Shown: one piece after another, positions 1-24,331 of the stretch | How the letters are laid out: every line of letters begins with the position of its first letter | How positions within the stretch are numbered: position 1 is the stretch's first letter | Virus record (IMG/VR): IMGVR_UViG_3300043499_000052 | Location: 1 to 24,331 of that record | Strand: one strand, 5' to 3' | Source: a virus | Length of the DNA: 24,331 bases | Notes under the pieces: generated by a model | Told to the model about the DNA's origin: nothing | Seen by the model: only the letters and a program-made list of their open reading frames with translations | Database searches by the model: none | Program-made: the position numbers and the translations under genes

Positions 1-980
1 CAACGCCTACCCAGCTTTTCGGCTGCCATCAATGTGAGCCCGTGGATGCCAGCCCGCGGGTCCACCACCACCTCGTCCTTATTGGACAGAACCTCGAGAA
101 TTTTGATGAACATCGATAGCGGCCGGCGGCCGTCGGTGTAGGTGCTGATGTCATCGCGGACGCGGTGATAATCGCTCGTCAGATCGAGCTTGACCGCTGC
201 GTCCGCGAACAGCACCAGCGGCCAACAGTGCGACTGTCCCACCGGCATAGCCTCTGCGGTGTTGTGGATGAATTGCAGCGTCCAGCGGTATTGCTTGTCC
301 ACTCTGGACATAACCCTGGCCATGTCGTCAACCTCAGTCGCAGCCGCGAACAGGTCCACGTACTGAGCCAGCCAGAACATGTCCGGCCCAACTTCCCGGG
401 GTATGTCCACATAGGCTAGTGACGGCTGCGTGTCCCGCAGGATGGCCACGAACGGGTCCTCACTGGCGTGGCCGCAGTAGAGCCGATGGTCACCGAGTAC
501 CCATATCTGTCCAGGCTGGACGGACAGCGAGGTCACGTCACGACTGACCCGCTGCGCTACCTCTGCCATCGTTTCGGACGCTCGCAGGTCAGCAATGCGC
601 CGGTAAATCGCGGACACGCTGACCTTTTCGCGGTTCATCCCGTCTTCCACCACGGCGGGATAGTCGGCAAACGCTCGCGCGGTGGTCCGCAGCTGTTTGG
701 GTAACGCGGCATGCTCGTCCGACAACCCCGGCGCATGCGTGGCCGGTCCCAACAGCTCACCTAGGCGACGGACCACCGCCACGTGTGTGCGCTCAGCCTC
801 CACCACCTCCTCTTTGAGTTGTCGCAACCGGTGACGCGCACCCACCAACAGCGCGGACAACTCTGCGAGGGTGTCGGGGTCCGTGATCCCCTGAATCTGG
901 TCACGTAGCCCGACAGCCCACCGTCTGATTTCAAACGCCTTTGCCTCTGTGAGGTCCAGGCGCGCGACATCGGTTGACAC
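1..980 (-). CDS. DNA methylase-like protein with degenerate catalytic motifs (partial, C-terminus beyond window)
   Basis: Open from a GTG at 980 to the window edge (326 codons visible). A TAG lies two codons upstream in frame, so GTG is the start, 10 bp after the stop of the SSB-like gene, with a GGGGTAGAGG ribosome site. Residues 1-75 are charged and helical. Residues 95-130 (KQLRTTARAFADYP, then EKVSVSAIYRRI) resemble the helical DNA-binding part of ParB/methylase-type proteins. Residues 160-200 follow the N6/N4 DNA methylase pattern LGDHRLYCGHAS, then YVDIPRE where DPPY is expected. Residues 303-325 (VVVDPRAGIHGLTLMAAEK) match the DPFxGSGTT SAM-binding block with most key residues changed. 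I infer a methylase-derived protein that probably no longer methylates and may be kept as a DNA-binding or replication factor. Homology is fairly clear, function is not. Confidence 0.72.
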   Translation of the reverse strand, partial: MSTDVARLDLTEAKAFEIRRWAVGLRDQIQGITDPDTLAELSALLVGARHRLRQLKEEVVEAERTHVAVVRRLGELLGPATHAPGLSDEHAALPKQLRTTARAFADYPAVVEDGMNREKVSVSAIYRRIADLRASETMAEVAQRVSRDVTSLSVQPGQIWVLGDHRLYCGHASEDPFVAILRDTQPSLAYVDIPREVGPDMFWLAQYVDLFAAATEVDDMARVMSRVDKQYRWTLQFIHNTAEAMPVGQSHCWPLVLFADAAVKLDLTSDYHRVRDDISTYTDGRRPLSMFIKILEVLSNKDEVVVDPRAGIHGLTLMAAEKLGRR

Positions 981-990
981 CCTCTACCCC

Positions 991-1848
991 CTAGAACGGG
1001 ATGCCATCCTCAGCCGGTACCGGCTGAGTAGGCGGTTGCGCGGGCTGAGCGGGTCCCTGAGCGCCTTGCGGGGGTTGCTGGTACCCCAAACCACTAGCGC
1101 CGTTGGGGTAGGTCTGGACGTGTTGCTGGTTCGGGGGTCCAGCTGGACCAGCGGGCATCGGTGGAGGGGGTGGCGCTTGCTGCCCGTAGCTCTCCACCGC
1201 CGGACCCGTGGTCATGTTCGCTCCACCGGGGACCAGTCCAGCGTCCGCGTACTGGACCGCGTTGGGTTGCTGCTGCGGTAGCGGCTGCCCGTACCCGGGT
1301 TGCGTCCCTTGTGGATACTGGCCGGCTGGTGGCTGCCATTGTGGCGCGGGGTTCACCGGCGCCTGCCCGCCTGGACTAGCGGCCATCTTCCGTGATTCCT
1401 CGTGGAAGTTGTTGACCGCGCCAGCCACGTGACGTTCCAGTAGTCCAGGGTTCTGTGCCTGCCAGTGCGATGCCACCTGAGCGTCATAGTCCCCGTACCG
1501 GTCGAACACCACGGACTTACCGTCCGGCACTACGCGGGCCAACAGCACAAACCCCTGTGGATACGCGCTGAGTTGCGAGAGCATCTTCTGGCCGAACACC
1601 AATCGATCCTCATACGCCTGGCCAGCGAACTGTCCCGTTAGGACAATGAGTGTCCCGCGGGCTGCGGGCTTTGCGCCAAAGCTCTGCGTCTGGACCACGG
1701 GGTGGTAACCACCCTGAATCCAGATCACCGTCTGGTTGTGGAGGTTGTCCCACGAAAACGACTGGACAGCCTCAGGCTGGTTCCATGCCGGTGCCGGCGG
1801 TGTGTAGCCACCTTGCTGCGGTGGCCATTGCTGCGGTTGCGGTTGCAT
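991..1848 (-). CDS. putative single-stranded DNA-binding protein (SSB-like, SSB-type acidic tip)
   Basis: 285 aa from ATG 1848, preceded by AGAGAGGGACGAGGT. An in-frame ATG at 1899 would add 17 residues but overlaps the previous gene and lacks a comparable ribosome site. Residues about 25-145 form the only ordered-looking domain, with beta-rich stretches (TVIWIQGGYHPV, RGTLIVLTGQF, GFVLLARVV). The rest is a Pro/Gln/Gly-rich disordered linker of about 130 residues. The protein ends EDGIPF, nearly identical to the DDDIPF tip by which bacterial SSBs recruit partners. Linker plus tip is the classic SSB layout; the core is not a textbook OB fold that I can recognise, so this may be a divergent SSB. 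It is followed at 10 bp by the methylase-like gene, which fits a replication cassette. Confidence 0.62.
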   Translation of the reverse strand: MQPQPQQWPPQQGGYTPPAPAWNQPEAVQSFSWDNLHNQTVIWIQGGYHPVVQTQSFGAKPAARGTLIVLTGQFAGQAYEDRLVFGQKMLSQLSAYPQGFVLLARVVPDGKSVVFDRYGDYDAQVASHWQAQNPGLLERHVAGAVNNFHEESRKMAASPGGQAPVNPAPQWQPPAGQYPQGTQPGYGQPLPQQQPNAVQYADAGLVPGGANMTTGPAVESYGQQAPPPPPMPAGPAGPPNQQHVQTYPNGASGLGYQQPPQGAQGPAQPAQPPTQPVPAEDGIPF

Positions 1849-1861
1849 ACCTCGTCCCTCT

Positions 1862-1999: not shown

Positions 2000-2088
2000 T
2001 TGCTTACCTTGTGTTGACAGTCGCACCACGTCCCCTTAGGACAGTCGTGGTGGTCGCCTACGCGGCACGGTCCACATACGAACGTCAC
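1996..2088 (-). CDS. small Cys/His-rich putative zinc-binding protein (30 aa)
   Basis: GTG start at 2088 inside the end of the endolysin gene (GTGA overlap), stop overlapping the next start in the same way, so it is embedded in a chain of translational coupling. In 30 residues it has CxxC (CGPC), HHDC and CDCQH, that is five Cys and three His, enough for one or two zinc sites. Such mini-proteins (C..CR.GDH..C..G.WCDCQH) are familiar from actinophage early regions, as far as I recall. No function is assigned. The dense Cys/His spacing and the double overlap argue against a chance ORF. Confidence 0.62.
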   Translation of the reverse strand: MTFVCGPCRVGDHHDCPKGTWCDCQHKVSK

Positions 2089-2741
2089 CCGTCATCTCCT
2101 GGTCGGGGTCCGCTCTCGCGCCGGTTGGTCAGGTCCTCAACTTTCTGGCTGATGGCATCGACAGTCGCGAGCATCTTGGACTGGTTCTCCATCACTGCCA
2201 AGAGGTTGGCGTAGATCTCGCCGAACGTCCACAGTGTCGACTGTCCCTCTGGGACACCCCGCATTCCACGGCCATCGTATTGCCATGGAAACGCTTGCAT
2301 GTCCGCTTCGCTGTAAGCCATTCCGTCCATCCCCTCAGGTCGATACGCCTCTGCTGCTGTGTCATAACCGGTGCCGGTGGCATCGCTGTAACCGGTGTTT
2401 CCGTGCTTCCCGCTGATGTGTACGTGGTCCTCATGCGGGTCCGACCCGCTGTAGTTGCTGGCCGCGAATCCGTTGCTACGGCTGTAAATCTTGCGATTGA
2501 AGATCACGTATTCCAGGTCCGTGGTGTCCTCTAGACACCAGTCCTTTACCGCCTCCCCGCGCGCCGTGTCGCTGTACGTCATGACATCGATGGCGTGGAC
2601 GATGTCTCGCGCGTCGGGGTTATGGTCGGAATTCTTGGACTGGTGCGACTGGTCCCCAATGGACCAGATGGTGATTCCGGGGTACTCGGCTTTAACCGAA
2701 TCGGACCGGCTGTCCAGGTTCCCCGCGAGGCTCCAACTCAT
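2085..2741 (-). CDS. endolysin-like M15-type peptidase
   Basis: 218 aa, ATG 2741 with GGAGGACAGC upstream. Residues 1-110 match the actinophage/actinobacterial family that opens with MSW.LA and carries S-D-H-N-P-D, A-I-D and D-H-V-H-I-S motifs. Likely zinc ligands are H40, D52 and H108, with D105 as a probable catalytic acid. This is the D-Ala-D-Ala carboxypeptidase/L-Ala-D-Glu peptidase fold, which cuts peptidoglycan stem peptides. Residues about 165-205 (TFGEIYANLLAVMENQSKML, then VDAISQKVEDL) form a coiled coil that may oligomerise or replace a wall-binding domain. No signal peptide is seen. The unusual feature is position: it sits in the early operon after the nuclease, with the integrase between it and the tail genes. 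The enzyme family is fairly sure; a lysis role is inferred. Confidence 0.75.
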   Translation of the reverse strand: MSWSLAGNLDSRSDSVKAEYPGITIWSIGDQSHQSKNSDHNPDARDIVHAIDVMTYSDTARGEAVKDWCLEDTTDLEYVIFNRKIYSRSNGFAASNYSGSDPHEDHVHISGKHGNTGYSDATGTGYDTAAEAYRPEGMDGMAYSEADMQAFPWQYDGRGMRGVPEGQSTLWTFGEIYANLLAVMENQSKMLATVDAISQKVEDLTNRRESGPRPGDDG

Positions 2742-2756: not shown

Positions 2757-2769
2757 GTCCCGTTAGGAC
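2757..2769. promoter_or_regulatory. intergenic copy of dispersed palindrome GTCC-N5-GGAC
   Basis: The sequence TGTCCCGTTAGGACA sits in the short gap between the nuclease stop and the endolysin start. An identical 15-mer lies at 1631-1645, and the close variant GTCCCCTTAGGAC at 2030-2042 and, inverted, at 18700-18712. It is one of about 22 GTCC-N5-GGAC copies in the window (see findings). Operator function is inferred. Confidence 0.5.
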
Positions 2770-4804: not shown

Positions 4805-5116
4805 CTATGCCGCGGGCTCGCCTTTCGACAAGCGTCCATATGAGGCTGCCGCCCGGTTTACGTCCACATCGGACATCACGTACGGCTGGTCCAGGGACTC
4901 AAGTCCTGGTATCACGGGCTGTACCCAGTCGGGCCGCGCGTGCTGAGCGATGTAGCGGTCAATCTCGGACTGGCTGATGTAGACGCGCCAACCTCGTTTG
5001 TTGTAGCGGATCTCTCTGTCCCGCAATGCGCGTTCCAGTGTGGACATTGAAATGCTTAGCGCCTGGCATGCCTCGGTTCGTGAGTACCAACGCTCACCGC
5101 CGATCGGCTTAGGCAT
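4805..5116 (-). CDS. excisionase-type helix-turn-helix protein
   Basis: 103 aa, ATG 5116 with CTAGGGGGTTCAC upstream. Residues 9-58 fit the MerR/excisionase HTH_17 pattern: WYSRTEACQALSISMSTLER, a basic wing (REIRYNKRGWRVYIS) and a terminal helix (EIDRYIAQHA). The C-terminal 40 residues are unlike the family and could mediate contacts. It is the first gene of the leftward early operon. Two roles fit: recombination directionality factor for the nearby integrase, or early-operon regulator. Serine-integrase directionality factors are diverse, so the Xis-like fold alone does not prove excision. It is also a candidate to bind the dispersed palindromes, which is speculation. Confidence 0.72.
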   Translation of the reverse strand: MPKPIGGERWYSRTEACQALSISMSTLERALRDREIRYNKRGWRVYISQSEIDRYIAQHARPDWVQPVIPGLESLDQPYVMSDVDVNRAAASYGRLSKGEPAA

Positions 5117-5352
5117 GTGAACCCCCTAGCTCGGTGGGCTGTTGTGGGGGAAGTCCACCGCTACCGGCACCGAGGGTCAACCACCGATTAACTACCGTCG
5201 ACAAAGGACAATGACGGAACTACTGGCGAGTAAGGAAATGACAGCGGTGTAGTTCAGAGAGTGGATTTTGGCTCAACCGCTTGGTTTCCAAGGGGAGCGT
5301 TCAAGATTCGATCCATTAAGGATGATCAGGAATGTAGCGTTAATGCTATAGC

Positions 5353-5387: not shown

Positions 5388-5421
5388 GATCGCGTGAGAA
5401 TCCCTAGGGAGACAACGAAAA

Positions 5422-5452: not shown

Positions 5453-5472
5453 CTAGCTTCCGTCGTGGTCCG

Positions 5473-5757: not shown

Positions 5758-5795
5758 GGTTGCGGTTCCTCGCGGTGCGGTGGGTGGAACCCACG

Positions 5796-6045: not shown

Positions 6046-6666
6046 GTGACCAGCGCTTTTAACCCCCGCACCCACATGGAAAAGATCACCGCAGAGGCAG
6101 CCGAGCTAGCCGCGTTGCTCGGTGAGGACTGGACTACCGAGGGGAACCTAGGCCAGTCGGTAGTCCACCGCACCAAGATCGTTTCCGTCTCGATGTTCGG
6201 TGGCGCGGTGAGCTACCGGCGCGGCGGTGAACACCGACGCTCGCTGTTCGCGTCCACCAACACCCCCGCCGACCTTTGGGAGTGGGTTGCACAGGTGGCC
6301 ATCATCGCGGACCCGCGCGACACCGCAGCGGCAGGCGTCCGGCTGATCAGCATGGAAGATCCAGAGGGGATTGCGGGGGTGGAGGCTCAGCGCGCCGCTG
6401 AGTACGGGACTGTGCCGCTGGTGGCGCGCGCGACCCTGGAACCGATCGGCGCGGCCACCGTCACTGAGTGGGTGGTCCAGCTAGGGGAGGAACGTCCTAG
6501 CCGAGTGTGGAACTGGACCGACAGCCGGTACTCACCCCACGACAGTGAGGCAGCCGGACAGCAACACCTAGCGTGGCTGGCTGTCCACCACGGCACCGAC
6601 GCGACGCGCTTCCGTCTGTTGGTCCGCGTGACCTCGGAAACGATCATTGCTGAGGTGACCCTGTGA
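6046..6666 (+). CDS. unknown protein translationally coupled to the integrase
   Basis: 206 aa, GTG 6046 with GAGAGG seven bases upstream. It overlaps the integrase start by four bases (GTGA), so the two are made together. Residues 10-90 contain a helical segment (ITAEAAELAALLGEDW) then a beta-rich part (SVSMFGGAVSYRRGG). The C-terminal half (EWVVQLGEERPSRVWNWTDS to LLVRVTSETIIAEVTL) looks like a small alpha/beta domain. No HTH, catalytic motif or membrane segment was found. Co-expression with the integrase suggests an accessory role in integration or lysogeny control. A reason against a directionality factor is that those are usually made separately from integrase. Confidence 0.6.
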   Translation: MTSAFNPRTHMEKITAEAAELAALLGEDWTTEGNLGQSVVHRTKIVSVSMFGGAVSYRRGGEHRRSLFASTNTPADLWEWVAQVAIIADPRDTAAAGVRLISMEDPEGIAGVEAQRAAEYGTVPLVARATLEPIGAATVTEWVVQLGEERPSRVWNWTDSRYSPHDSEAAGQQHLAWLAVHHGTDATRFRLLVRVTSETIIAEVTL

Positions 6667-8219
6667 CCCGCCGGACAGCCGTACTCAACCCCGTGGCCAC
6701 CGCGCGCATTGCGGAGCTTGTGGCCACGTTGCGGGAGCGCGACACGGACCCCGCCTACGCCACCGCGCCGCGCCTGGACACGTACGCGCGCATCTCGCCA
6801 TCGGCAGACCCCACCGCCGTAAAGGTGGAGCGGCAGACCACCGACGTTCTGGAAATGTTGCTACGCGGCAACTACCGGCTAGGGGAAACCCTCATTGACT
6901 GGAACCTCTCAGCCTGGAAACCGCGAGGCAAGCGACCCGCGTTCCTCAGCGGGCTAGCCCGCGTTGCGTCCGGTGAGTCCAACGGCATCGCAGCGTGGAA
7001 CAGTGACCGGTTGACCCGTCAGCTAAGCGAGGCTGAGCAACTCATTGCGGTGGCCACCGTCAACCGCGCAGTGTTCCTGAGCTACTCAGGTGAGTTTGAC
7101 CTGTCCACATCAGACGGACGGATGATGCTGCGTCTACAAACCATGTTCGCTCAGCAAGAGAGCGACCGTAAGTCAGAGCGACTGGCACGGAAGTACGCGG
7201 CGCAACGGGAGGGTGAGGGACGCAGCGACGGACTAGGCGGTTACCAGTCCACGGACGTGTTTGGCCACGGGGGACGCGACGAGGCAACGCTTACGGCAGA
7301 GCGTGACGCTATCGCGTGGGCCATCCCAGAGGTCACCAACGGCGCTACGTGGCAAGCGGTGGCGGATGAGTGGAACCGGCGCGGGCTGTCCTCACGCGGT
7401 GGACAGCGTTTCAACGTCACTAAGGTGTCCACAATTTTGCAACAGCCGCGCCACGCGGGTTATCTCACGCTAGGGGACCACGGTTCGCGGACCATCGTGG
7501 GTGAGGCTCACAACGCGGTGGCCATCGTGGACAAAGCCACGTGGTCACGGTTCACCGCCGTACTCGCATCCCGCGCAGAGCGCAGCGGGGGACGTCCAGC
7601 TGGAACCACACAGACTCACTTGCTCGGTGGGTTGCTGCGGTGCGCAGAGTGTGGAAACACGTTGCTGGTGTCCGGCCCGTCCTACCGCTGTAACGGTGCC
7701 ATCGGTTGCCGACGCGTCACCGTCAACGCTGCGGTGTTGGATGCCGTGGTGGGTGAGTACGTGGTGGAGACACTGAGCGACCCGCGCAACGGTCACCGAA
7801 TCGCGGCGCGCAACAGCGAGCGTGGCCGCATTGAGGTGGAGCTAGAACGGGTCCGCGAGCGTAAGCGCCGGTTTACCGCGCTGTACCAGGCTGGCAGCCT
7901 TGATGATGATGAGTACGTGCGCGTCACCACCGACAACGCCACGATGGTCCGCGAGCTTGAGTCCAGGCGGGACGCGCTCACCGATGACGGACAACCGGCG
8001 CGGGTCCACAGTCGCGACGAGGCTGAGCGGGAGTGGAGCAAGTCAGAGGGGAACCGCGAGGAACGGCGGGAGCTAGTTCTCTCAGCGTTCCCGCTGGGTA
8101 TCGCGGTGCGGTTGCCGACCGTGGCGCGGGTCAAGTCCACCGCAGCCAACACACGGGACCGACTCAGCCGCATCCTGCCGGGGTGGCTAGAGAGCATCAC
8201 GGCACAACGGGCAGCCTGA
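6663..8219 (+). CDS. int: large serine recombinase (phage integrase)
   Basis: 518 aa, GTG 6663. The resolvase domain carries the nucleophile S45 in YARIS, R57 in VERQ, and D115-R116 with R119 in NSDRLTRQ. Helix E follows (MFAQQESDRKSERLARKYAA). The recombinase domain spans about 190-300. The zinc ribbon uses C327, C330, C343 and C349. A coiled coil (about 365-430, ERVRERKRRFTALY) precedes the C-terminal DNA-binding part. All catalytic residues and domains of a functional phiC31/Bxb1-class integrase are present, with a ~35-residue N-terminal extension. It catalyses attP x attB recombination and, with a directionality factor, excision. It is transcribed against both flanking blocks, and its end is shared with the late block at the inverted repeat 8225-8290. 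Confidence 0.95.
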   Translation: MTRRTAVLNPVATARIAELVATLRERDTDPAYATAPRLDTYARISPSADPTAVKVERQTTDVLEMLLRGNYRLGETLIDWNLSAWKPRGKRPAFLSGLARVASGESNGIAAWNSDRLTRQLSEAEQLIAVATVNRAVFLSYSGEFDLSTSDGRMMLRLQTMFAQQESDRKSERLARKYAAQREGEGRSDGLGGYQSTDVFGHGGRDEATLTAERDAIAWAIPEVTNGATWQAVADEWNRRGLSSRGGQRFNVTKVSTILQQPRHAGYLTLGDHGSRTIVGEAHNAVAIVDKATWSRFTAVLASRAERSGGRPAGTTQTHLLGGLLRCAECGNTLLVSGPSYRCNGAIGCRRVTVNAAVLDAVVGEYVVETLSDPRNGHRIAARNSERGRIEVELERVRERKRRFTALYQAGSLDDDEYVRVTTDNATMVRELESRRDALTDDGQPARVHSRDEAEREWSKSEGNREERRELVLSAFPLGIAVRLPTVARVKSTAANTRDRLSRILPGWLESITAQRAA

Positions 8220-8702: not shown

Positions 8703-9518
8703 TCAGCCTGACGCGGCGGTGGGTGAGTACTGGAATGCGTGGACGTAGACGACGGTACCGCCAGAGGAACCAGCCTGGTACTCGCGGCCAACAATCTGGA
8801 CACTGGCCGCTGTAGCGCCGCCGCAGGTAGCGAGAACGTTTGAGTTGTTGGCGGTGACCACCACGATGGGTGGCACGGTGAACCGTCCAGCGGGGAAGTT
8901 GCATTGAACCTGCGAGAACCCACCAGCCGCGATGGCGGGGAGGTTCGCGATTCCGAACCACGAGGCAAACGGAACGTTGCGGATAACCCCGCCTGTCGGT
9001 CCAATTGCGACAGACCCGTCACGGTTGATACGGAACCGGTTGACCTCCACCCCGTTCTCAATCAGTGCAATCGCAATCTGACCACCGGACATGAGATAGA
9101 CGCGAGACTCTATCTGGTCCGGTGCGAACAGTCCACGGATACGGAACGTGTCCCCGGTGTCAGTGTAGTCACCCATGATGAGGTCACTATGGAGCGACAG
9201 CGCACCGTCAACCTCTAGCGTGGACAGAAAATGCGACGCCAGGCTGGCCGTACCACCGTCCCATGTGGACGAGCCACCGACACCAGCGGTGATGACCGCA
9301 GCGACGCTATCGAACGTAGCCAACAACGCGGATTCGCCAACGGCAGGAACACCACCGTAGAACGGCAACGCGTCGACAACCTCCCCGCTGCCATCGTCCA
9401 CACTGCACATGAGCGTCACGGGGTCCACGGCGGTGACCGTACAGAAACGCATACGCGCGCTCAGCGGGTCACGCGCTAACGCCACCAGCTGCTCAAAGGG
9501 GTTCTGCGGTCCGGTCAT
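8703..9518 (-). CDS. tail-tip spike / receptor-binding protein
   Basis: 271 aa from ATG 9518, which overlaps the previous stop as ATGA; a longer in-frame start at 9563 lies inside the hub gene and is less likely. Residues about 20-75 (RFCTVTAVDPVTLMCSV to VPAVGESALLATF) look like the OB-fold of gpV/gp5-type baseplate spikes. The centre is repetitive beta structure (FRIRGLFAPDQIESRVYL, FRINRDGSVAIGPTG), as in intertwined fibre stems. The end (GGFSQVQCNFPAGRFTVPP to VVYVHAFQYSP) resembles the H-type-lectin-like beta sandwich of small phage tail-tip proteins and also resembles the 121-aa gene at 11201. Together these indicate a membrane-facing spike with a glycan-binding head. Confidence 0.65.
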   Translation of the reverse strand: MTGPQNPFEQLVALARDPLSARMRFCTVTAVDPVTLMCSVDDGSGEVVDALPFYGGVPAVGESALLATFDSVAAVITAGVGGSSTWDGGTASLASHFLSTLEVDGALSLHSDLIMGDYTDTGDTFRIRGLFAPDQIESRVYLMSGGQIAIALIENGVEVNRFRINRDGSVAIGPTGGVIRNVPFASWFGIANLPAIAAGGFSQVQCNFPAGRFTVPPIVVVTANNSNVLATCGGATAASVQIVGREYQAGSSGGTVVYVHAFQYSPTAASG

Positions 9519-12414: not shown

Positions 12415-14576
12415 CCGACCTGAACCACCTTCCGCGTAGTCAGACCGCGTACCGCCGTGGTGGCCGCGTTGCGTACCTGGACATTGATGAGGTCCGACAG
12501 TCGCCGGTCCTGGACCTGGACCACAACCTGTGTCGCGGGACCAGCCAGAGCGCTAGGCATCCCGGGGAGCGCGTTAAGGCTGGTGTGACCTCGTGGCGCG
12601 GCCAGCGTGACATCAGGGAACATACCCAGACCCCGCGCGGCCATCAGCTGCGAGTCCGCAAAGGACTGTTGTCCGATCGGCTGGTAACCCTGTGGCGCAG
12701 ACTGTGGCGCGGACTTAGTGCCACCGCCACCAGCGGGACCAGCGGACCAGCCAACCTCGCTGCGTTGCAACTTGTCCAACAGCCGTTTGTCCTCGTTCTC
12801 CGCGAGGTTGATAGCGATTTGGACTTGCTTAGGGTCCGTCAGATCTGACAGCCCGCGCCGCGCGGCATCCAGTCCGAGCAGCTGAACGTCCGTCTTGAGC
12901 TTGTCCGGGGTCTTGAGGAGAGTGTCCACATAGTCCTTTGCCTCAGCCTCAGTCATGCCGAACTGTTGCGCCATAGCCATAAGCGCCTGGCGCTGCTTGC
13001 CATAGTTCGTGAGGATGTCCGCTGTGGACTTACCGTTGGCCCGCGCGTCTTCCAGCTGCGCGGTAGTCAATGCCTCAATCGCTTCCGCCTGACTGTCCAG
13101 CGCCTCCTGGTTCGCGCGGCCCTTCTCGGTGCTGGTGTCCAGCGTCTTTCCGTTTGTTTTCAACGCCTCTTTGAGCTTGTCTAACCCCTCCTCGTAGTTG
13201 CGCGCAGCCTCGCGAGCGTCCAGCGCGTTTCCATTGAGGATGTCCAGCTTTTGGGTCAACCCCTCCACACTCTTGCGCGCCTCGTCCGTCGCGTCCGCGT
13301 AGGCAGCCCAGTCTTTGCTAGCGGCCAGCGCCATAGCGGCAGAGTCGTTAGACGCTGCGGTGGCAGGCTTGGTTACCGCTGTCAATTCCTTGGTGCCGTT
13401 GATCAGCTTGTCAAACTCTTTGACCAGGTGAGGGATGGTGAACACTGGACCGACGAGCAACCCCGTCAATCCACCCTTGACGATGTCGTTAGCCAGGATC
13501 TTGTTTAGTGTCCCCAAAAACTGGTTCAGCATCGGATTGATGACGGAACCCATCTGGTCACCGAGCACAGACATGTTGTCGTTCAATGTGGACATCTGGC
13601 CATTGACGCTCGCCGCTTGCTCGCTGATGGAGTTGGGGAACATCGCGCCTAGCTCTTTCCCCATAGCCTCAATCTCGGTACGGGTGAGCTTTCCCTGGCT
13701 GGCTAGTTCCTGTAGTTCGGGGATGTTCTTACCGGTGGCTTTGGCCAACGCCTCCCACGCGGGTACGCCACGCTGCGTCAGCTGTAGCATGTCCTCCGCG
13801 TTCACCTTGCCACGACTCAACATCTGGCCATAGATGAGCGCAACATCCTGGATCGGCACCGACGTGGCCGCAGCCACCGCGCCTAGGTCCTTCATCGTTT
13901 TCAGTAGCTCCGATGAGGACACACCCATACTGACGAGGATCTTTGCGGTGTCGACCAATTCGGGGAACTCAAACGGTGTGGTGTTACCAAATTCCTGGAT
14001 GTCGCTGAGAATCTTGTCGACGTCCCCGCCGTCGCGAATGACATTCTTCAATGCGATGCGCATGGTTTCCATGCTCGCGGCGGTCTGGCTGGCCTTGACC
14101 TCTAGCGCTCCCATTGCAGCCACAAAACCCAGCGGACCCAGACTCTTGGCAGCAGACAGCCCGCTGAACCCCGCTGCGTCCGTCGCTGCGGTCAATCCCG
14201 CTAGCTGCGCTTTGGCCCGACCAAAGCCAGTTACCTCCGGCTCGATCTTTGGGTCCATCCTGTCCAGCTGTTTGACCGTAGCCTCAAGCTGACGTAGCTG
14301 TTTCTGAGCGTCCTTTGTGTCCACACCCATGACCACGCCACGCGCGATCTCGTCGCGGAGAACGGCCATCTTTGCTTTGGTGGCCTTGATTGCCTCGTCC
14401 CGCACCGTGACTTTGACTGGCGGAATCTTGGTGTTGGCCAACGCGTCAAGTTGCTTGTCTGTCTTGCCTGCCGCCGCGCCGAGCTTGTCAAGCGAGGTGA
14501 TCGCTGGCGCGAGTCCAGTTTGGACACCCTTGCTGTCCGCGGTGACACCGATCGTAATGTCATTGCTAGTTGCCAC
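12411..14576 (-). CDS. tail tape measure protein
   Basis: 721 aa, GTG 14576 overlapping the HK97 gp10-like gene by 11 bp. The conserved tape-measure domain is at about 200-305, with landmarks IQEFGNTTPFEFPELVDTAK, LVSMGVSSSELLKTMKDLGA and LQLTQRGVPAWEALA. Flanking parts are Ala-rich helices and coiled coils, with hydrophobic segments around 345-385. At about 0.15 nm per residue the length predicts a tail of roughly 100 nm. It scaffolds tail-tube length and is ejected with the DNA. No muramidase or peptidase domain is visible. It follows the chaperone frameshift pair, separated by one unexpected gene. Confidence 0.92.
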   Translation of the reverse strand: MATSNDITIGVTADSKGVQTGLAPAITSLDKLGAAAGKTDKQLDALANTKIPPVKVTVRDEAIKATKAKMAVLRDEIARGVVMGVDTKDAQKQLRQLEATVKQLDRMDPKIEPEVTGFGRAKAQLAGLTAATDAAGFSGLSAAKSLGPLGFVAAMGALEVKASQTAASMETMRIALKNVIRDGGDVDKILSDIQEFGNTTPFEFPELVDTAKILVSMGVSSSELLKTMKDLGAVAAATSVPIQDVALIYGQMLSRGKVNAEDMLQLTQRGVPAWEALAKATGKNIPELQELASQGKLTRTEIEAMGKELGAMFPNSISEQAASVNGQMSTLNDNMSVLGDQMGSVINPMLNQFLGTLNKILANDIVKGGLTGLLVGPVFTIPHLVKEFDKLINGTKELTAVTKPATAASNDSAAMALAASKDWAAYADATDEARKSVEGLTQKLDILNGNALDAREAARNYEEGLDKLKEALKTNGKTLDTSTEKGRANQEALDSQAEAIEALTTAQLEDARANGKSTADILTNYGKQRQALMAMAQQFGMTEAEAKDYVDTLLKTPDKLKTDVQLLGLDAARRGLSDLTDPKQVQIAINLAENEDKRLLDKLQRSEVGWSAGPAGGGGTKSAPQSAPQGYQPIGQQSFADSQLMAARGLGMFPDVTLAAPRGHTSLNALPGMPSALAGPATQVVVQVQDRRLSDLINVQVRNAATTAVRGLTTRKVVQVG

Positions 14577-15039: not shown

Positions 15040-15515
15040 TCACTGCCTCGCTTCCATTGGCCACATGCGCGCCAGCTCTGTCTCTAGCTCCGCTTCCGTC
15101 TGTACCCGGGGAGCGTCCACTGGGGACGGTTCCGTCAGGATGTCGATGTACGTCGCTACTACGTCCGGACCTTCGCTTTCGAGCGCGGACGGGAGGCAGC
15201 CGACCCTGAGCGCGAGGTTGACGAGGGAGCGTCCGTAGCTCCCTCGCGGGTAGGGTTTCCGACCAACGTGGGATTAGGAATCCCTCGGACCTCCACCGCG
15301 TGTACGTCAAAGTCCTTATAGGACGCGAACCGGTCCCCGTACACTCCTAAGCGGACAGCGGCCAGATAGGCAATCTGCGCGGTCTGCGTATAGCTCAGCG
15401 GGGTACTGAGCCACGACTCCCCGTACTCTGCCTCCCATGCGCGGATGTCGCGCGCGTCCTGGTCAATCTCAGTGACGGTGCCATCGTCCAGCTCAATCGC
15501 GAATCTCTGTCTCAT
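15040..15515 (-). CDS. tail assembly chaperone, -1 frameshift (G-T) product
   Basis: Joined product: residues 1-88 as in the short form, then a -1 shift at AAACCCT (plus-strand bases 15252-15258), then 70 residues in the new frame ending at TGA 15040-15042, about 158 aa. The heptamer reads A AAC CCT in the zero frame, fitting X XXY YYZ. After the shift the frame is open and reads YPRGSYGRSLVNLALRVGCL, a natural helical chaperone extension, ending ELETELARMWPMEARQ. Long tailed phages typically make a G and a G-T product in a fixed ratio just before the tape measure, as here. Frameshifting itself is predicted. Confidence 0.75.
15159..15515 (-). CDS. tail assembly chaperone, short (G) form
   Basis: 118 aa, ATG 15515 with GAGGGAGTATCCAC upstream. 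The domain is small: RFAIELDDGTVTEIDQDARD, then IRAWEAEYGESWLSTPLSYT and a helix AQIAYLAAVRLGVYG. The last ~25 residues of the zero frame are a low-complexity Ser/Arg/Lys tail that reads like a run-off past the slippery site. It acts with the longer form to coat and fold the tape measure during tail assembly. It is placed after the major tail gene and a strong hairpin. Confidence 0.8.
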   Translation of the reverse strand: MRQRFAIELDDGTVTEIDQDARDIRAWEAEYGESWLSTPLSYTQTAQIAYLAAVRLGVYGDRFASYKDFDVHAVEVRGIPNPTLVGNPTREGATDAPSSTSRSGSAASRPRSKAKVRT

Positions 15516-16510: not shown

Positions 16511-16523
16511 GTCCTTTCTGGAC
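16511..16523. promoter_or_regulatory. intergenic copy of dispersed palindrome, upstream of the major tail gene
   Basis: TGTCCTTTCTGGACT (16510-16524) lies in the 27-bp gap between the fusion gene stop and the major tail start, overlapping its ribosome-binding region. A bound protein here would block the highly expressed tail gene. Part of the GTCC-N5-GGAC family described in findings. Confidence 0.42.
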
Positions 16524-16531: not shown

Positions 16532-18250
16532 TTAGAAGTAGGTGATGACTTGCACGAATCCGTCGCCACCCTTACCACCCGCGCCGGAATCAAAGCCATT
16601 GACGCTGGCTCCACCTCCACCACCTCCACCGCCGCGTAACCCGTCACCGCCTTTGCCACCAGCGCCACCGCTACCGGCGCCACCGCCAGAGCCACCAACG
16701 CCAGGGAGCATCGGCGCGGCGGGAGGAACGATGATGTCCGAAACACCATCACCGCCGACCACGCCACCGACCCCCGCACCGAAACTTGTGTAGTTCCATA
16801 GCTCAGGTCTGCGGATACCCGCGCCACCGTTGCCAGGGACGTTGCTTGCGGGCATGCCACCGCCACCACCACCGCTGGACGCGCCGGTAAGCGTGGTGAT
16901 CAGACCAACCGCGCCAGCGCCACCGGTTGCGGTAGAGGCTCCCCCCGCGTTGGCACCGGGGACCGCTGTTCCACCGGCGCCGCTGTTCACCGTCCCGCCA
17001 AAGCCAGAGAAACCCTGTAGACCGGTCCACGTATCGCTAGCGCCTGGACCAAAGCGCGTTGCTGAGCTAGTGCCACCGGGGTTCCCGTTCGTGTCATCGG
17101 TGGTCACCGCCGCGCCACCAGCGCCACCAGCGCCAACCGCGCCGTTAACCACGGCAGGCAACGCCGATGATGGAATCTCGCGCAGGATGCCCGCGCTACC
17201 CGCGCCACCACCACCGCCTACGCGAATCGTTCCAGCGGCACCCCGCCGACCGGACCCACCGCCACCGCCTCCACCTTGGACAATGATGGTGTGCGAGGTT
17301 GCTCCCGCTGGTTTGGTCCAGGTGAACGCGCCAGGCGTGGTATACGTGTCGATCTGTGGTGGCTTGACGGTTGGCTCTGGACCGATCGGACCTTGTGGAC
17401 CCGTCGCGCCGGTATCGCCTTTGACGCCTTGCGGACCTTGTGGACCGGCCACGCCTTGCGGTCCAGCTGGACCCGTGGCTCCGGGCTGTCCTTTGTCGAC
17501 GAACAGATCCCACGCTTCTGGGTGGGTCGGTGACGGAAGGTTGGTGTTAGGCGCGGTGGCAATCCAGACCGCACCGCCGTAGTCCACAATGTCGTCAACC
17601 GCGTACGCGGTGGCAAAGTCCCACAGCCCGCGCCAATTGACACCCTCTGGTCCAGCTGGACCGGTAGCGCCGGTGGCACCGTCCACGCCATCCGTACCGG
17701 CGGGACCGGCGGGACCGGCTGGACCAGCCTCGCCAGTCGGTCCGGGGTCGCCTTGCGGTCCCTCGTCGCCAACCGGTCCAGCGGGTCCCTGCGGGCCGAT
17801 CGGTCCGGGGGGTCCCTCAGGTCCAGGTGGACCAGGTAAAGACGCTGGTGGCGGGTTAGGACGGGGTGGAGCTACCCCCGCGCCACCGCTGGTGGGGTAA
17901 CAGACGGACGCTCCCACGAGGCAATGAATCACGTACGCGGGGTAGCTCTGCTCACTGATGGTGGCCACCACGGGTTCCACGCGGACCACCGCGACGTCCG
18001 GACCGCGCAAGAGGTTGACCGCGACGTCCGCGAGGCTGTCAAGCTCCACCTGTGCGTCCTCATCGGACAGACGGCGGCCGATAGCCCACACAGGGACAGC
18101 GAATTGCATCAGCTGGACGTCCACGTCAAGCGTCGGCTTAGCCACCACGTAGCACGGGACCATGTTGGGGTCATCGGGGTGATAGGTCCACGTTTCCGTC
18201 CCTGAATGCCGCAACGCTTCCGCGAGAGCTAGGCGAATCTCCTGGATCAT
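16532..18250 (-). CDS. tail-terminator-like domain fused to collagen repeats, sugar-binding-like module and Gly-rich adhesin domain
   Basis: 572 aa from ATG 18250 (ATGA overlap with the connector stop; an in-frame GTG at 18262 is less likely). Residues 1-118 look like a tail terminator/head-tail joining protein ([20 protein letters not shown] to [11 protein letters not shown]). Residues 139-202 are Gly-X-Y collagen repeats. Residues 205-252 ([20 protein letters not shown], then [10 protein letters not shown] and AWDLF) resemble a CBM5/12 chitin-binding-type module. Residues 254-291 are a second collagen stretch. Residues 300-572 are a glycine-rich domain ([20 protein letters not shown], then poly-Gly), as in phage adhesins. 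Tail terminators are usually about 130 aa and end there. The gene lies exactly in the terminator slot between connector and major tail, so the adhesin should emanate from the neck. Confidence 0.75.
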
Positions 18251-18665: not shown

Positions 18666-18712
18666 GGTCCCCTGATCGCGGGGGGTCAGCCCGGGGACCG
18701 TCCTAAGGGGAC
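18666..18712 (-). terminator. hairpin after zinc-ribbon gene, with adjoining palindrome
   Basis: GGTCCCC (18666-18672) pairs with GGGGACC (18693-18699), with an inner TGA/TCA pairing, right after the zinc-ribbon stop. The adjoining GTCCTAAGGGGAC (18700-18712), ending on the stop codon, is an inverted copy of the dispersed palindrome at 2030-2042. Without a T-tract this may be an attenuator that lowers transcription after the capsid group. Confidence 0.45.
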
Positions 18713-19035
18713 TACTTGGGTTCCCCGGTTTCCGGCAGCTCGTTGTCCGGTGTGGACGGTTGGCCGCCTGGCAGCGTGTTGTCCGGCAGATCCGGGGGGA
18801 ACCCCGTGCTGGGGTAGACCGGCTGTCCAGGCAGCGAGTTGTCGGGACGGTTCGGCTGTCCTGGCTGTCCAGGCAGACCGTGTCCGGGGTAAACCGGCGG
18901 GGTCGGCAAACCGTGGCCGGGGTACACCGGACCACCGGGCAGCGAGTTATCGGGACGTCCGGGGTGTCCGGGGTTCGGTAGCGGCTGCCCGCAGTCTGGG
19001 CACTTGATTTGCTGTCCGCATGTTTGGCAGTACAT
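18712..19035 (-). CDS. zinc-ribbon protein with Pro/Gly repeat tail
   Basis: 107 aa, ATG 19035 with GAAGGAGAGCC upstream. Residues 1-19 hold two CxxC pairs (CQTC, CPDC), a compact zinc ribbon. The remainder is a disordered tail of imperfect repeats around RPDNSLPG, PVYPGHGLP and PDNTLPG. Similar PDNxLPG/PGxGLP tails occur in phage structural regions with no known function. It follows the capsid gene, so a capsid-associated or assembly role is conceivable. It overlaps the preceding small gene by 89 bp in another frame. Confidence 0.62.
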   Translation of the reverse strand: MYCQTCGQQIKCPDCGQPLPNPGHPGRPDNSLPGGPVYPGHGLPTPPVYPGHGLPGQPGQPNRPDNSLPGQPVYPSTGFPPDLPDNTLPGGQPSTPDNELPETGEPK

Positions 19036-19185: not shown

Positions 19186-20403
19186 TTACGGCGCGAGGTG
19201 AACCGCAGCGTTGGGCACTGGCCGGTACAGACCGACGTAACCCGCATAGGCCACCTGGACACCGAGGACCGATGGCTCAACAACTTGCAACGGGGGGATG
19301 TTCTGCTCGTAGACCTCAAGCGCGTAGTCATTGACAACCCAGAATGAGTCATCCGTGACACCGGGGGTGACCACGAGACGCAGACCCACGGGGTTAGCCG
19401 CGAGGCTGTCAGCCGACATGGTTCCACCGGCATTCCCCGGCGCCAGGAACGGGAACAGCGGACGTCCAGCGGCATCCGACGCGCCACCCAGACGGGCCCA
19501 ACCGAGCGGACCCGCAGCGATGACCGTGGGAAGCTCCCCTGTGGACGCAAACACCATGGCCGCAGCGTCATAGAACGCGGCAATGATCTCAGCGCCGGTG
19601 GCCGCAGCAGCGAGCGTCACCTTGCCGGTGGACTTGCTCATTTCCGCGATAGCGGCTGTCTCCACCGCTTTGGCGTACCGGCGCGCGAGCTGGCCGATGA
19701 CCGTATCGAGCGTGATCACATTCCAGTCGAACGTCTGGCGAGCGACGTTGACGTAGCCACCGAGGGTGAACAGCGCAACGTCATCACTGGCCAGTCGGAA
19801 CGGCTGAGAAACAAGCTCGTCCTTCTGCGCAGCCTGGATACCCACACCGTCCGTGATGTGGTCATCGATGAGTCGCGGCCGGCGGAACGTCGGTCCACTA
19901 GGGATGGACTGAACGCCGAGCGCCGTAACCAGCGGACGCGAGGTGTTGTAGGTGTTGATAACCGGACCCACCAGCGCGTTGGGGAACACCCCATCGAAGT
20001 TGTCCGTAGTGATGTGTGCCGCTGCGCGGTGGTACCGCTTGATGCGGTCCTCTGCCTCTTGCTTGAGGTGGCCTTTGCCCACGTGGGTGTTGAGATAGTC
20101 ACGCAGGTACATACCGATGGAGCTGTATTCCACCGGACCGTCCTGGCCTCCACTCTGGACACCCGAACCGAGCCGCGCCAGGCGGTCCTGCGCAGCCTGC
20201 GAAAGCTCGATGTCTCCACTGAGGACCTCGATCTGCTTGTCGATAGCGGCGATGCGCTCCCGACCACGCGTGATCAGCTCCTGGTCGTTGTCGCTGAGGT
20301 CACGACCCTGCTCCATCGCGGTGTCCGCGAGAGACTTTGCGAGGCTTACCTTTTCCTCGCGTTCCTTGCTGAGTTGCTTGAGCATTGCGTCCATGATGGA
20401 CAT
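19186..20403 (-). CDS. major capsid protein, HK97 fold with N-terminal delta (scaffold) domain
   Basis: 405 aa. ATG 20403 is taken, but AAAGGGA sits directly against it; the ATG at 20394, nine bases from that site, could be the true start. Residues 1-75 are a coiled-coil delta domain (EREEKVSLAKSLADTA, ITRGRERIAAIDKQIEVLSG), which acts as built-in scaffold and is normally removed by the protease. From about 90 come the HK97 landmarks: a long helix/E-loop region, YNTSRPLVTALGVQSIP, the P-domain (LGGYVNVARQTFDWNVITLD) and the A-domain with MVFASTGELPTVIA, followed by LRLVVTPGV and WVVNDYALEVYEQ. The protease is encoded upstream in the same operon. A 140-bp gap precedes it. Confidence 0.92.
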   Translation of the reverse strand: MSIMDAMLKQLSKEREEKVSLAKSLADTAMEQGRDLSDNDQELITRGRERIAAIDKQIEVLSGDIELSQAAQDRLARLGSGVQSGGQDGPVEYSSIGMYLRDYLNTHVGKGHLKQEAEDRIKRYHRAAAHITTDNFDGVFPNALVGPVINTYNTSRPLVTALGVQSIPSGPTFRRPRLIDDHITDGVGIQAAQKDELVSQPFRLASDDVALFTLGGYVNVARQTFDWNVITLDTVIGQLARRYAKAVETAAIAEMSKSTGKVTLAAAATGAEIIAAFYDAAAMVFASTGELPTVIAAGPLGWARLGGASDAAGRPLFPFLAPGNAGGTMSADSLAANPVGLRLVVTPGVTDDSFWVVNDYALEVYEQNIPPLQVVEPSVLGVQVAYAGYVGLYRPVPNAAVHLAP

Positions 20404-20506: not shown

Positions 20507-20533
20507 GTCTCTAGTGGACTGTCTTGCGGGGAC
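20507..20533. promoter_or_regulatory. tandem near-copies of the dispersed palindrome in the pre-capsid gap
   Basis: In the 140-bp gap upstream of the capsid gene (20404-20543), GTCT-CTAGT-GGAC (20507-20519) and GTCT-TGCGG-GGAC (20521-20533) sit 14 bp apart. Each is one base off GTCC-N5-GGAC. The first shares its centre with the exact copy GTCCCTAGTGGAC at 24246-24258. The rest of the gap shows no gene and no clear promoter. Confidence 0.42.
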
Positions 20534-20816: not shown

Positions 20817-21336
20817 GGGAAGCGCCTCCCCACGGAATCTCGTTCCTGGACTCACCACGGATCACCGACAGGGACCCCTCTGCCAGGCGCGTCCAGCCGG
20901 TGGACACTGTGGACACGTACAGATCCCACGGCCACGTACCGGTGAACGCGGAATAGAGGTCCGTGACGTCTGCGGGCTGGTGGACCCAGAGTTGAGTCCC
21001 GCTGTCCTGTGTGTACGTCGGGAGCTTGTGACGGGTTTCCAGCGAGGTCCAGGCGCACCGCGCACCGAGTATCGGCGCGGCCACCGCAGACATCACCGTT
21101 TCGTCATCGGGTAGCCAGAGCTTTGGCTGCCACCAGAGTCCCTGTCGGAACGTGAAAGACGTACCGCCACCCTGATGGACCACCGAGTGGACTAGCTCCG
21201 GTACGCGGTCCAGGTAGAACCGTTGGCCCACCACCACGTCCTGAGACTTCACCGGCGCATCGGGCTGGTACAGCGCGAACCCCTGTAGGAAATCGGTCCC
21301 CGTCTCTATCACGAGGTCTACCGCAGCTGCTCTCAC
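20803..21336 (-). CDS. head-region beta-sandwich protein, unknown function
   Basis: 177 aa, GTG 21336 overlapping the protease stop (GTGA). The pattern (ETGTDFLQGFALYQPDAP, then a beta-rich middle and WPWDLYVSTVSTGWTRLAEG, SLSVIRG) resembles the small domain of phage structural proteins that starts 'GdtF...' and ends 'YDL.v...G...rL..G...V', known at the base of head fibres and BppU-type baseplate proteins. With the coiled-coil gene after it, a head-decoration or fibre-anchor function is plausible. No specific family is claimed. Confidence 0.55.
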   Translation of the reverse strand: MRAAAVDLVIETGTDFLQGFALYQPDAPVKSQDVVVGQRFYLDRVPELVHSVVHQGGGTSFTFRQGLWWQPKLWLPDDETVMSAVAAPILGARCAWTSLETRHKLPTYTQDSGTQLWVHQPADVTDLYSAFTGTWPWDLYVSTVSTGWTRLAEGSLSVIRGESRNEIPWGGASLVSV

Positions 21337-22007: not shown

Positions 22008-23485
22008 GACGCTAGCTCTCCGTTCGTCTGCTCTGCGAGTGGTCCGGCGCTACCGGGGGGAGTGGGTGGGTTGCCAGTGAACGGCTGTAGTTGCGGCGGG
22101 GTGGCTGGCTTAAGCTCCGCAGCGGTGAGGGGTTCCAGGTTCTCCCATGCCCGCGCCTCGTTAACCCTGAGAACCTTGCAGCCGATCCCCGTTTCGTAGC
22201 CTTTCATGCGCTCCACAAAGGATGGTGCGATGAACGATTCAGCGTCATGCCGCGCCACCAGCCCACGCGCGAGGCAGAACCCCGACAGCGCCTGCATGAT
22301 GTTGCGGGAGATAGCTCGCAGCGTCGCGCGCCAGAGGAAATCAAACGCGGACTCTGTGGTGTTGTATGTCAGCGAACTGTCCTTTACGGACAGACCAACA
22401 AAGTAGAGCGGCACCCCGAACACCGATGCAATGCGCGCCTCATCAAAGGTGCGGAGGTCCAACAGACCAACATCGCTCGGTTTGAGGTTGAGGGGGGTGT
22501 ATGTCAACCCTCCACTCAGGACGGCAGGCAACGTCCCACGGGATGCCGCAGCCTCAGCCCACGACCATTTCAGCTCGTCAGCCTGACGTTTGTTGAGCTT
22601 GACCGCAGAGGACAGCACCGCCGTAGGGATGCCGTTGCCAACGGCCAACTCAGTACCCCACCGCTCCAAAGCGTCCGCTGACATGAGGTTGCGTTGGACC
22701 GCCTCTAGTGGACCGATGCCGCGAACCTCGCCAGGCCACACCTGGTATCTAATGTGGAGGATCTGTTCCCGCGGTATCTGCCCGTAACCCTCCAATGTGT
22801 ATACCGGTAGACCCTTCTCCGAGGTCACGGTAACCATGTCGGGGTTCAGCACTACCCACCGCGCCACAGTGCCATCCGCGTACCGCGCCGTGGGGACCAC
22901 AAACGCAGCGCCGCGAATCAGCATGCTGTTGGCTATGGCCTTGATGGCGTCCACCATCGATGTGTAGATCTCAGGTTCGGGGTTCTCTGTCCACGGTGGA
23001 GCGTCAACCGGTGTGCTGTCCTTGGTAACCAGGATCGGCATGGTTCCGAGTGACCGGCCGATAAGGTCCACGCATGCGTACACTGTGGACACTCGACCCT
23101 CTAGCAACGTGCCACCGAGGAACCGACCGTTACCGCCAAACTGACGGTTGGGACCATGCTCCGCAAAGAATGGGGGTTCCCACCCACCGGGGTAACCGGG
23201 GAAGCGTGTCCCGTGGGGGAACCCCCATCCCCGCGCCTTGTCCTCGTCAGTCGGACCCCATACGTGAGCACCCTCCACAAAGTCGCCTGGACCACCAAAC
23301 TCAATGCGTGTCTCAGCTGGACGCGGTGGACCTACGAACACACGAGGTCCACCACCCCACCAGTAGCCACCAGCAATGTTGGTCGCGGTGGACGGGCTCT
23401 GTGCGTAGACCACGGCGGGACTCACCACGTTGGCTGGCACGACGCTGCCACGTGCGCGGGTCCGCAGAACGGGGAGGTTAGGCAT
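22004..23485 (-). CDS. portal protein (HK97 family)
   Basis: 493 aa, ATG 23485 with AAGGACGG. Landmarks of the family: VYACVDLIGRSLGTMPILV (about 133-151), WVVLNPDMVTVTS, REQILHIRYQVWPGEVRGIG, LQ-type crown helix region, and KDSSLTYNTTESAFDFLWRA. The first ~120 residues are an atypical Gly/Pro-rich extension (NIAGGYWWGGGPRVFVGPPR, GFPHGTRFPGYPGGWEPPFF) that has no counterpart in typical HK97 portals, probably on the capsid-interior or clip side. The C-terminus is Pro-rich. It forms the dodecameric DNA channel. Confidence 0.92.
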   Translation of the reverse strand: MPNLPVLRTRARGSVVPANVVSPAVVYAQSPSTATNIAGGYWWGGGPRVFVGPPRPAETRIEFGGPGDFVEGAHVWGPTDEDKARGWGFPHGTRFPGYPGGWEPPFFAEHGPNRQFGGNGRFLGGTLLEGRVSTVYACVDLIGRSLGTMPILVTKDSTPVDAPPWTENPEPEIYTSMVDAIKAIANSMLIRGAAFVVPTARYADGTVARWVVLNPDMVTVTSEKGLPVYTLEGYGQIPREQILHIRYQVWPGEVRGIGPLEAVQRNLMSADALERWGTELAVGNGIPTAVLSSAVKLNKRQADELKWSWAEAAASRGTLPAVLSGGLTYTPLNLKPSDVGLLDLRTFDEARIASVFGVPLYFVGLSVKDSSLTYNTTESAFDFLWRATLRAISRNIMQALSGFCLARGLVARHDAESFIAPSFVERMKGYETGIGCKVLRVNEARAWENLEPLTAAELKPATPPQLQPFTGNPPTPPGSAGPLAEQTNGELAS

Positions 23486-23491
23486 TCATCC

Positions 23492-23504
23492 GTCCTTAGT
23501 AGAC
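23492..23504. promoter_or_regulatory. near-copy of the dispersed palindrome at the terminase-portal junction
   Basis: GTCC-TTAGT-AGAC spans the terminase stop codon and the 10-bp gap before the portal start. It is one mismatch from GTCC-N5-GGAC, overlapping the portal ribosome-binding region. Confidence 0.35.
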
Positions 23505-24331
23505 GCTGACATTTTGGCCACCCTCGCTGTGTTCCAGCGCGTACAGCGCGTCCGTAGCGGCAATCAGCGCGGTAGGCGGGGTGGGTGCGTTGCGGTTCCA
23601 CACCCAGCCACCGGTAAACACGCGCGAGCTGGCCGCGCAACAGTCGGAGATCAACGCCGGCGCGCGTCCAATTCGGACGGTCCCCTCTGTCACGTGCTGA
23701 GCAAACGCGGCGCACGCGGCGGTGTAATCGACCTGGCGCAATGGCTGGATGCCTACCGAGTAGTCGCGGTCCAGGCGTTCCATGAGATCGACAATGTTCC
23801 CTTTGGCGTCAAACGCAACCGCGTCAATCCCGTAGGCGCGGTCCAGCTCTGCGAACCTATCCAGCACCCACGCGGCACCACCGCGCATGTCCACAAGGGT
23901 CACTACGGGGATGCCATCGTCACCACGGAACGCAGCGGCAATAGCCGCGTTGCTGCGGTCACTGCTGACGTCCAGACCCCAACCGATAGCGCGTCCGTCA
24001 GTCGGTGGCTGCGGGACAGGGACGGCCAGGCGCTCTATGTCCTCATCGGACAGAACAGCCTCAGTCGCGGATTGCTGCCACACACCCAACCGCTCGCGCT
24101 GGAATGACTTACGCGACATCATCGATAGTTCCAGGCGGATGGTCCGCTCACTGAGTCCTAGACCGTAGCTCGGATTCTTGGCAGCCCATACACGCGGGTC
24201 GTTGACGTCATCGTCATTGGTTCCCCACCACTCCCAGTAGGCGAGGTCCCTAGTGGACGGTTTGTGGCCGCGGGAGCGGAGCTTTGCCAACACCGAGCTT
24301 TCCCACGTTCCCGCACTGCTCACGTACCAGA
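23496..24331 (-). CDS. terL: terminase large subunit (partial, N-terminal ATPase part beyond window)
   Basis: 278 codons visible and open to the right edge; the true start lies outside (the GTG at 24323 is internal, since WY precedes it in frame). The visible start, WYVSSAGTWESSVL, is the junction after the ATPase domain. The RNase H-like nuclease domain follows: GWGLDVSSDRSNAAIAAA with the first catalytic Asp, VAFDAKGNIVDLMERL with the second, and the C-terminal APTPPTALIAATDALYALE. It cuts and packages concatemeric DNA through the portal encoded 10 bp downstream. Confidence 0.9.
   Translation of the reverse strand, partial: WYVSSAGTWESSVLAKLRSRGHKPSTRDLAYWEWWGTNDDDVNDPRVWAAKNPSYGLGLSERTIRLELSMMSRKSFQRERLGVWQQSATEAVLSDEDIERLAVPVPQPPTDGRAIGWGLDVSSDRSNAAIAAAFRGDDGIPVVTLVDMRGGAAWVLDRFAELDRAYGIDAVAFDAKGNIVDLMERLDRDYSVGIQPLRQVDYTAACAAFAQHVTEGTVRIGRAPALISDCCAASSRVFTGGWVWNRNAPTPPTALIAATDALYALEHSEGGQNVSVY

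Follow-up and report, generated by a model that had tools for sequence, protein, structure and literature searches.

An operator-like GTCC-N5-GGAC palindrome dispersed over a temperate actinophage contig and its relatives

Why would a phage genome carry the same 13-bp palindrome about once per kilobase, mostly inside its genes? We address this question in a whole IMG/VR contig of 24,331 bases and 62.7% GC (hereafter the window), a fragment of a phage genome that in our reading is that of a temperate actinophage from a soil source. The first-pass annotation described GTCC-N5-GGAC as a candidate genome-wide operator family. That description stands insofar as the sites are selected as DNA, spread over the contig and bear the signature of a symmetric dimer operator; presumed early control regions are not enriched in sites, and the HTH protein at 4805, mentioned there as a possible repressor, is a poor candidate.

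Results

Gene content of the window

Structural genes (terminase, portal, capsid, tail, tape) run leftward from 24.3 to 8.3 kb, and the early region, also leftward, holds HTH_17, RecE-like, Cas4-type exonuclease and methyltransferase-like genes. No close DNA relative of the window was found among named phages; a different sample yielded the same phage as contig G001 (100% identity over 12.8 kb), which adds no independent information. By comparison with G006 we judge that the contig lacks roughly 6-10 kb, so that a repressor gene may be missing from it, and none was identified in the window.

Several features of these genomes are recorded here in their own right. The window contains no GTGCAC in its 24 kb, although its base composition predicts about 8 copies, a pattern resembling avoidance of a restriction site. 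A strong intrinsic terminator-like hairpin (15 pairs and a T-rich tail; 5420-5454, minus strand) lies downstream of a lipoprotein gene. Short membrane-anchored or lipoprotein-like proteins are encoded near the integrase in the window (5473-5757), G003 (L007:9540-9839) and G006 (L016:5979-6200), the latter two with a similar C..W...Y / RP-GC ending; a role in superinfection exclusion is possible. The genes at 3-980 in the window and L007:4426-5490 in G003 (both minus strand) encode N6/N4-type DNA methyltransferase relatives that are 37% identical; a recognisable catalytic DPPY motif is missing from both (the window has DIPR there), and this relative is apparently retained as an inactive, possibly DNA-binding protein. 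One gene has moved, its 68% identical products being encoded in the early region of the window (2085-2741) and among the tail genes of G003 (20787-21515). Where the window has this protein, G003 has an unrelated C5 cytosine methyltransferase (L007:6262-7281, minus strand), flanked by the genes for the exonuclease and 5491-6243.

Excess and placement of the sites

The window contains 26 exact GTCC-N5-GGAC sites, about one per kilobase (Table 1). The first-pass annotation had listed 22, all of them exact and correctly placed, and had overlooked four; its six sites of the TGTCC-N5-GGACA form are confirmed, and the recurrences it reported at 1631 and 2756 and, inverted, at 2030 and 18700 are correct. 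It had rightly called the spacer GC-poor, for which we obtain 38.5% (against 62.7% for the contig) in place of about 42%.

The 5-base spacing singled out in that annotation stands apart from other spacings and from codon-preserving shuffles. Across k=0-20, k=5 gives 26 sites and each of the other 20 spacings gives 0-7. Coding DNA holds 21 sites, compared with 1.9±1.2 (maximum 6, n=300) when synonymous codons are permuted within genes, and one-mismatch sites number 54 against 25.7±4.5 in such shuffles. In 1.06 Mb from 68 GC-rich phage loci that do not belong to the group, k=5 occurs at 0.39 per 10 kb and other spacings at 0.31, compared with 10.7 for k=5 in the window. Chance, codon usage or protein repeats might have been suspected from the favoured reading phase of the coding sites, xxG TCC xxx xxG GAC, which is a natural Ser..Asp codon pattern, but the shuffles, the flat counts at other spacings and the control loci without a k=5 excess refute this explanation, which retains virtually no probability. 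We conclude that the palindromes are genuine, resemble operators and are under selection at the DNA level.

Site placement ignores gene boundaries and strand, and 21/26 exact sites (81%) are intragenic. The first-pass observation of near-matches in intergenic gaps is weakly true: exact sites are found there more often than expected (5/26, 1.6 expected, P = 0.02), but one-mismatch sites are not (5/60, 3.7 expected, P = 0.31). In each of seven presumed early control regions, one or two sites score above 7 bits, which is no more than random windows contain and corresponds to the genome-average rate.

Table 1. Exact GTCC-N5-GGAC sites, selected one-mismatch sites and genes of interest in the window
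Feature	Coordinates	Strand	Comment
Exact site GTCCTTATTGGAC	75..87	.	
Exact site GTCCACTCTGGAC	297..309	.	full TGTCC..GGACA form
Exact site GTCCAGGCTGGAC	509..521	.	G003 exact site at same codon position
Exact site GTCCCGTTAGGAC	1632..1644	.	G003 and G010 keep it at same codons
Exact site GTCCCCTTAGGAC	2030..2042	.	intergenic
Exact site GTCCCTCTGGGAC	2243..2255	.	
Exact site GTCCCCAATGGAC	2652..2664	.	
Exact site GTCCCGTTAGGAC	2757..2769	.	intergenic, upstream of gene 2085-2741
Excisionase-type HTH_17 protein	4805..5116	-	first-pass candidate binder (unsupported)
Exact site GTCCACATCGGAC	4862..4874	.	within HTH_17 gene
One-mismatch site GTCGACAAAGGAC	5197..5209	.	upstream of HTH_17 gene (presumed early control region); not above random expectation
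206-aa gene, candidate regulator	6046..6666	+	directly upstream of and overlapping integrase; no family match
Large serine integrase	6663..8219	+	family in 7/8 clearly site-rich contigs covering region, also in four site-free contigs
Exact site GTCCAGGCGGGAC	7961..7973	.	within integrase gene
Exact site GTCCCATGTGGAC	9258..9270	.	
Exact site GTCCACGTAGGAC	12388..12400	.	close to gene start (12414)
Exact site GTCCGCAAAGGAC	12654..12666	.	absent from first-pass list
Exact site GTCCGCTGTGGAC	13017..13029	.	
Exact site GTCCAGTTTGGAC	14513..14525	.	
Exact site GTCCACTGGGGAC	15115..15127	.	intergenic; top matrix score in window
Exact site GTCCTTATAGGAC	15312..15324	.	absent from first-pass list; G003 identical 13-mer, same codons
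Exact site GTCCTTTCTGGAC	16511..16523	.	intergenic, 6 bp upstream of gene 15608-16504
Exact site GTCCTCATCGGAC	18056..18068	.	
Exact site GTCCTAAGGGGAC	18700..18712	.	mostly intergenic
Exact site GTCCGGTGTGGAC	18745..18757	.	
Exact site GTCCATGATGGAC	20389..20401	.	absent from first-pass list; overlaps major capsid start codon; G002 exact site, same position
Two tandem one-mismatch sites (20507, 20521)	20507..20533	.	gap upstream of capsid gene
Exact site GTCCTTTACGGAC	22379..22391	.	full TGTCC..GGACA form
Exact site GTCCAATTCGGAC	23666..23678	.	absent from first-pass list; kept in G002; G003 and G006 have it with one mismatch
Exact site GTCCTCATCGGAC	24039..24051	.	kept in G003
Exact site GTCCCTAGTGGAC	24246..24258	.	

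Make-up of the site

To describe the site we pooled 173 copies from nine genomes, in which the arms are fixed by the search while spacer and flanks are free. The core is Y-GTCC-A-C-W-G-T-GGAC-R, with the half-site c-Y-GTCC-A-C-W, and the centre base is A or T in 76% of sites. The two sides pair no more than chance at the flank and first spacer positions and less than chance at the inner spacer positions (34 vs. 51.7 of 173), and a central CA/TG step is carried by one half at a time, the halves acting independently and competing for the central base. The CA/TG pattern fits a pair of half-sites that overlap, an arrangement known from odd-centred operators of the lambda type, and the site as a whole fits an odd-centred operator for a DNA-bound homodimer.

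An inverted repeat with a 5-base loop could also form in RNA, and the sites might then be hairpins in transcripts, with a 4-bp stem and a 5-nt loop. We regard this as very improbable because the stem flanks lack covariation and pairing is at chance level for the first loop pair and lower still in the inner loop; on the coding strand, moreover, the central base is about as often A as T. Overlapping inverted DnaA boxes (actinobacterial TTGTCCACA) are suggested by the inner consensus GTCCACW, whose GTCCACA form the box contains, but the required TT is missing and the conservation pattern is wrong: GTCC is conserved and A, C, A are weaker, the reverse of known DnaA boxes, and position -2 is C. With TTGTCCACA itself present 0-1 times per genome in all site-rich phages, a DnaA origin of the sites is hardly credible.

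Occurrence and turnover in relatives

Relatives were gathered by portal, primase, exonuclease and integrase searches. The sites are present in several of them, reaching 9.7 per 10 kb in G018, 9.3 in G003, 7.0 in G002, 6.3 in G006, 5.1 in L191, 4.7 in G012, 3.3 in G010 and 3.1 in G011 (10.7 in the window); totals are 28 in G003, 26 in G018 and 0 in G016. Of all 4-mer spaced dyads, GTCC-N5-GGAC is the most significant in the window, G003, G006 and G018; in G002, G012, G011, G010 and L191 the top dyad is this palindrome in the register TCCA-N3-TGGA, with GTCC-N5-GGAC in second place. Several motif-enriched relatives share only 25-70% protein identity with the window phage. The excess in several relatives and its absence from unrelated phages suggest a DNA-binding protein that holds the genome at many points.

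The first-pass annotation had proposed looking for sites conserved beyond what the encoded protein demands. Of 16 window coding sites mapped onto G003 through protein alignments, 4 have an exact counterpart at identical codons (0.5 expected, P = 0.0014); in G002 2/7 are kept (0.3 expected, P = 0.04), but none of the mapped sites is kept in the more distant G006 and G018. With few sites kept in place, we conclude that individual sites are lost and gained at a density that, in the strongest cases, remains close to one per kilobase.

Enrichment is also related to the lysogeny and replication modules. An integrase is encoded by every clearly site-rich contig that extends over the region, and in 7/8 of these it is a serine integrase (G000, G003, G006, G010, G012, G018, L191); G011 combines a tyrosine integrase with moderate enrichment. 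Few or no sites are found in G015, G016, G017 and the Actinomadura prophage L189, which have the same exonuclease but a tyrosine integrase, or in G019, which has the same exonuclease and in which no integrase was found. The sharpest contrast is between G018, with a serine integrase and 26 sites, and G016, with a tyrosine integrase and none, which are 72% identical in terminase, 64% in portal, 69% in capsid and 59% in exonuclease; the sites can therefore vary together with the lysogeny module when the structural genes are similar. Integrase alone is not the explanation, however, because L192, L194, L195 and L196 have a serine integrase and 0 sites; the replication module was not seen in these contigs. 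Strong enrichment goes with this replication module together with a serine integrase, in a comparison of few cases and of fragment contigs. Integrase type could reflect host range instead of immunity.

Such a distribution raises the question of whether the sites serve replication, recombination, partition or packaging rather than lysogeny, for example through a replication or partition protein bound along the genome. An exonuclease / primase-helicase module is common to the clear site-rich contigs covering the region, the four serine-integrase contigs without this module in view lack sites, and the sites are indifferent to gene boundaries and strand. Yet G015, G016, G017 and G019 share the exonuclease (G015 also the primase-helicase) and have few or no sites, and we consider a role of this kind quite unlikely.

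A host-encoded dimeric protein (nucleoid-associated, chromosome-organising or a global regulator) might alternatively bind the sites, with phages exploiting or mimicking this protein and so having the motif in common within a host group. This would accommodate the occurrence of the same motif in phages that are unrelated in their structural genes (G012 and G011, with terminases 25-30% identical), the lack of a phage DNA-binding family common to all site-rich phages, and the weaker counts in the more distant contigs G020 and G021 (10 sites each in 55-60 kb). On the other hand, G016 has no sites and shares most structural genes with G018, so that the host would have to differ. A host search with the exonuclease found one Actinomadura prophage (L189), the only host-assigned relative, which has a tyrosine integrase and is unenriched in its 20 kb; no bacterial genome matched in the search by portal. 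We hold a host factor to be unlikely, if not negligibly so.

Candidate binding proteins

No phage DNA-binding family was found to be common to all site-rich phages. The HTH_17 protein named in the first-pass annotation is unsupported as a repressor, since its occurrence does not track the sites: it is absent from site-rich G006, G018 and G010, and its family is present in site-poor or site-free G015, G016, G017 and G019. Serine integrase sites are built around a central dinucleotide. The serine integrase was rejected as binder because the palindrome centre is odd and homologues occur in L192, L194, L195 and L196 without sites. The C5 methyltransferase of G003 was likewise rejected as the reason for the sites, as no such gene is among the window's own genes.

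Cro/C1-type genes are present in G003 (8404-8781), L191 (about 8399-8749) and G012 (44941-45348), and were not detected in G006, G018, G010 or the window fragment. In G012 an exact site precedes the start of this gene by 17 bp, a strong site falls within the gene, and a cro-like gene (45855-46061) is oriented divergently; relatives of the G003 candidate were found only in G003 and L191. G006 (30,014 bases, nearly complete as its gene order suggests) and G018 are site-rich, and no recognisable HTH_3, HTH_26 or HTH_17 protein was found in them (in G018 without a six-frame HTH_3 search). A ribbon-helix-helix search with a home-made pattern returned nothing usable, and the AlphaFold model of a protein common to G006 and G018 (13859-14398 in G006) has a pLDDT of 42. 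G006 also encodes DpdA (7-deazaguanine DNA modification, E=4e-76; L016:18430-19179, minus strand) close to a probable Vut_1 (YhhQ-type) transporter (L016:19246-19722, plus strand), gene content that suggests a 7-deazaguanine modification of its DNA.

Discussion

We put at about even the chance that the 26 palindromes are the sites of one symmetric homodimeric regulator distributed over a temperate actinophage genome, most likely to control lysogeny. Produced in the lysogen, a repressor would occupy many dispersed sites; at promoters the bound protein would shut off initiation, and inside operons it could act as a roadblock to read-through transcription, as at the dispersed sites of phiC31 or L5-type stoperators. 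We infer both the phage-encoded repressor as binder and the transcription block, whereas the sites themselves, their enrichment beyond codon demand and their presence in relatives are observed directly, as are the dimer-operator make-up and the turnover with retained density.

Several observations count against a lysogeny repressor: no repressor was identified in the window, site-rich G006 and G018 show no recognisable HTH_3, HTH_26 or HTH_17 protein (G018 without a six-frame HTH_3 search), Cro/C1 candidates are confined to G003, G012 and L191, most sites are intragenic, early regions are unenriched and G011 joins a tyrosine integrase to moderate enrichment. Repressor specificity usually diverges, and here the same specificity extends across phages that share little else. 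It is possible, if rather doubtful, that number and density rather than position are selected, the binder being a regulator of an unrecognised family or a host protein that silences or folds the whole prophage genome.

Known systems offer partial parallels to the proposed lysogeny regulator. The repressor sites of phiC31 are inverted repeats that lie mainly between genes, at promoters. Our phages resemble phiC31 as temperate actinophages with a serine integrase and a copy number in the 18-30 range (26 in the window, 28 in G003, 26 in G018), but the sequence is another one, 81% of sites here are intragenic and no homologous repressor was found. Dispersed repressor sites number 18-30 in the phiC31 and L5 genomes (PMC4557955). 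Cluster A stoperators are asymmetric, are recognized by a monomer, and lie mostly between genes and in one orientation with respect to transcription (PMC9934374, PMC4557955). A Cas4-family gene is found in Cluster A phages too (PMC6550527). The stoperators of Cluster A (L5) and the MabJ prophage are similar to our sites in being 13 bases long, genome-wide and of similar number, but here the sites are palindromic and orientation-free, with 5/26 intergenic. We do not class them as stoperators because they are neither asymmetric nor placed mainly between genes. The first-pass annotation invoked phiC31 and L5 as precedents; from L5 stoperators our sites depart in being palindromic and mostly intragenic. 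Operators of the lambda/434 type (Cro/C1) share conserved outer arms and a weakly constrained centre that prefers A/T, and Cro/C1-type genes occur in G003, G012 and L191; however, our sites are dispersed at one per kilobase rather than clustered at one immunity region, and no such gene was found in G006, G018 or the window.

To our knowledge, dispersed repressor sites come from few phage groups (phiC31, Cluster A). The palindromes described here would add a further set of dispersed sites, palindromic and mostly intragenic, from uncultured actinophages. With the pair G018 (26 sites) and G016 (none), the origin of such systems becomes testable, as does whether silencing would rest on a roadblock, on folding of the DNA or on a factor from the host.
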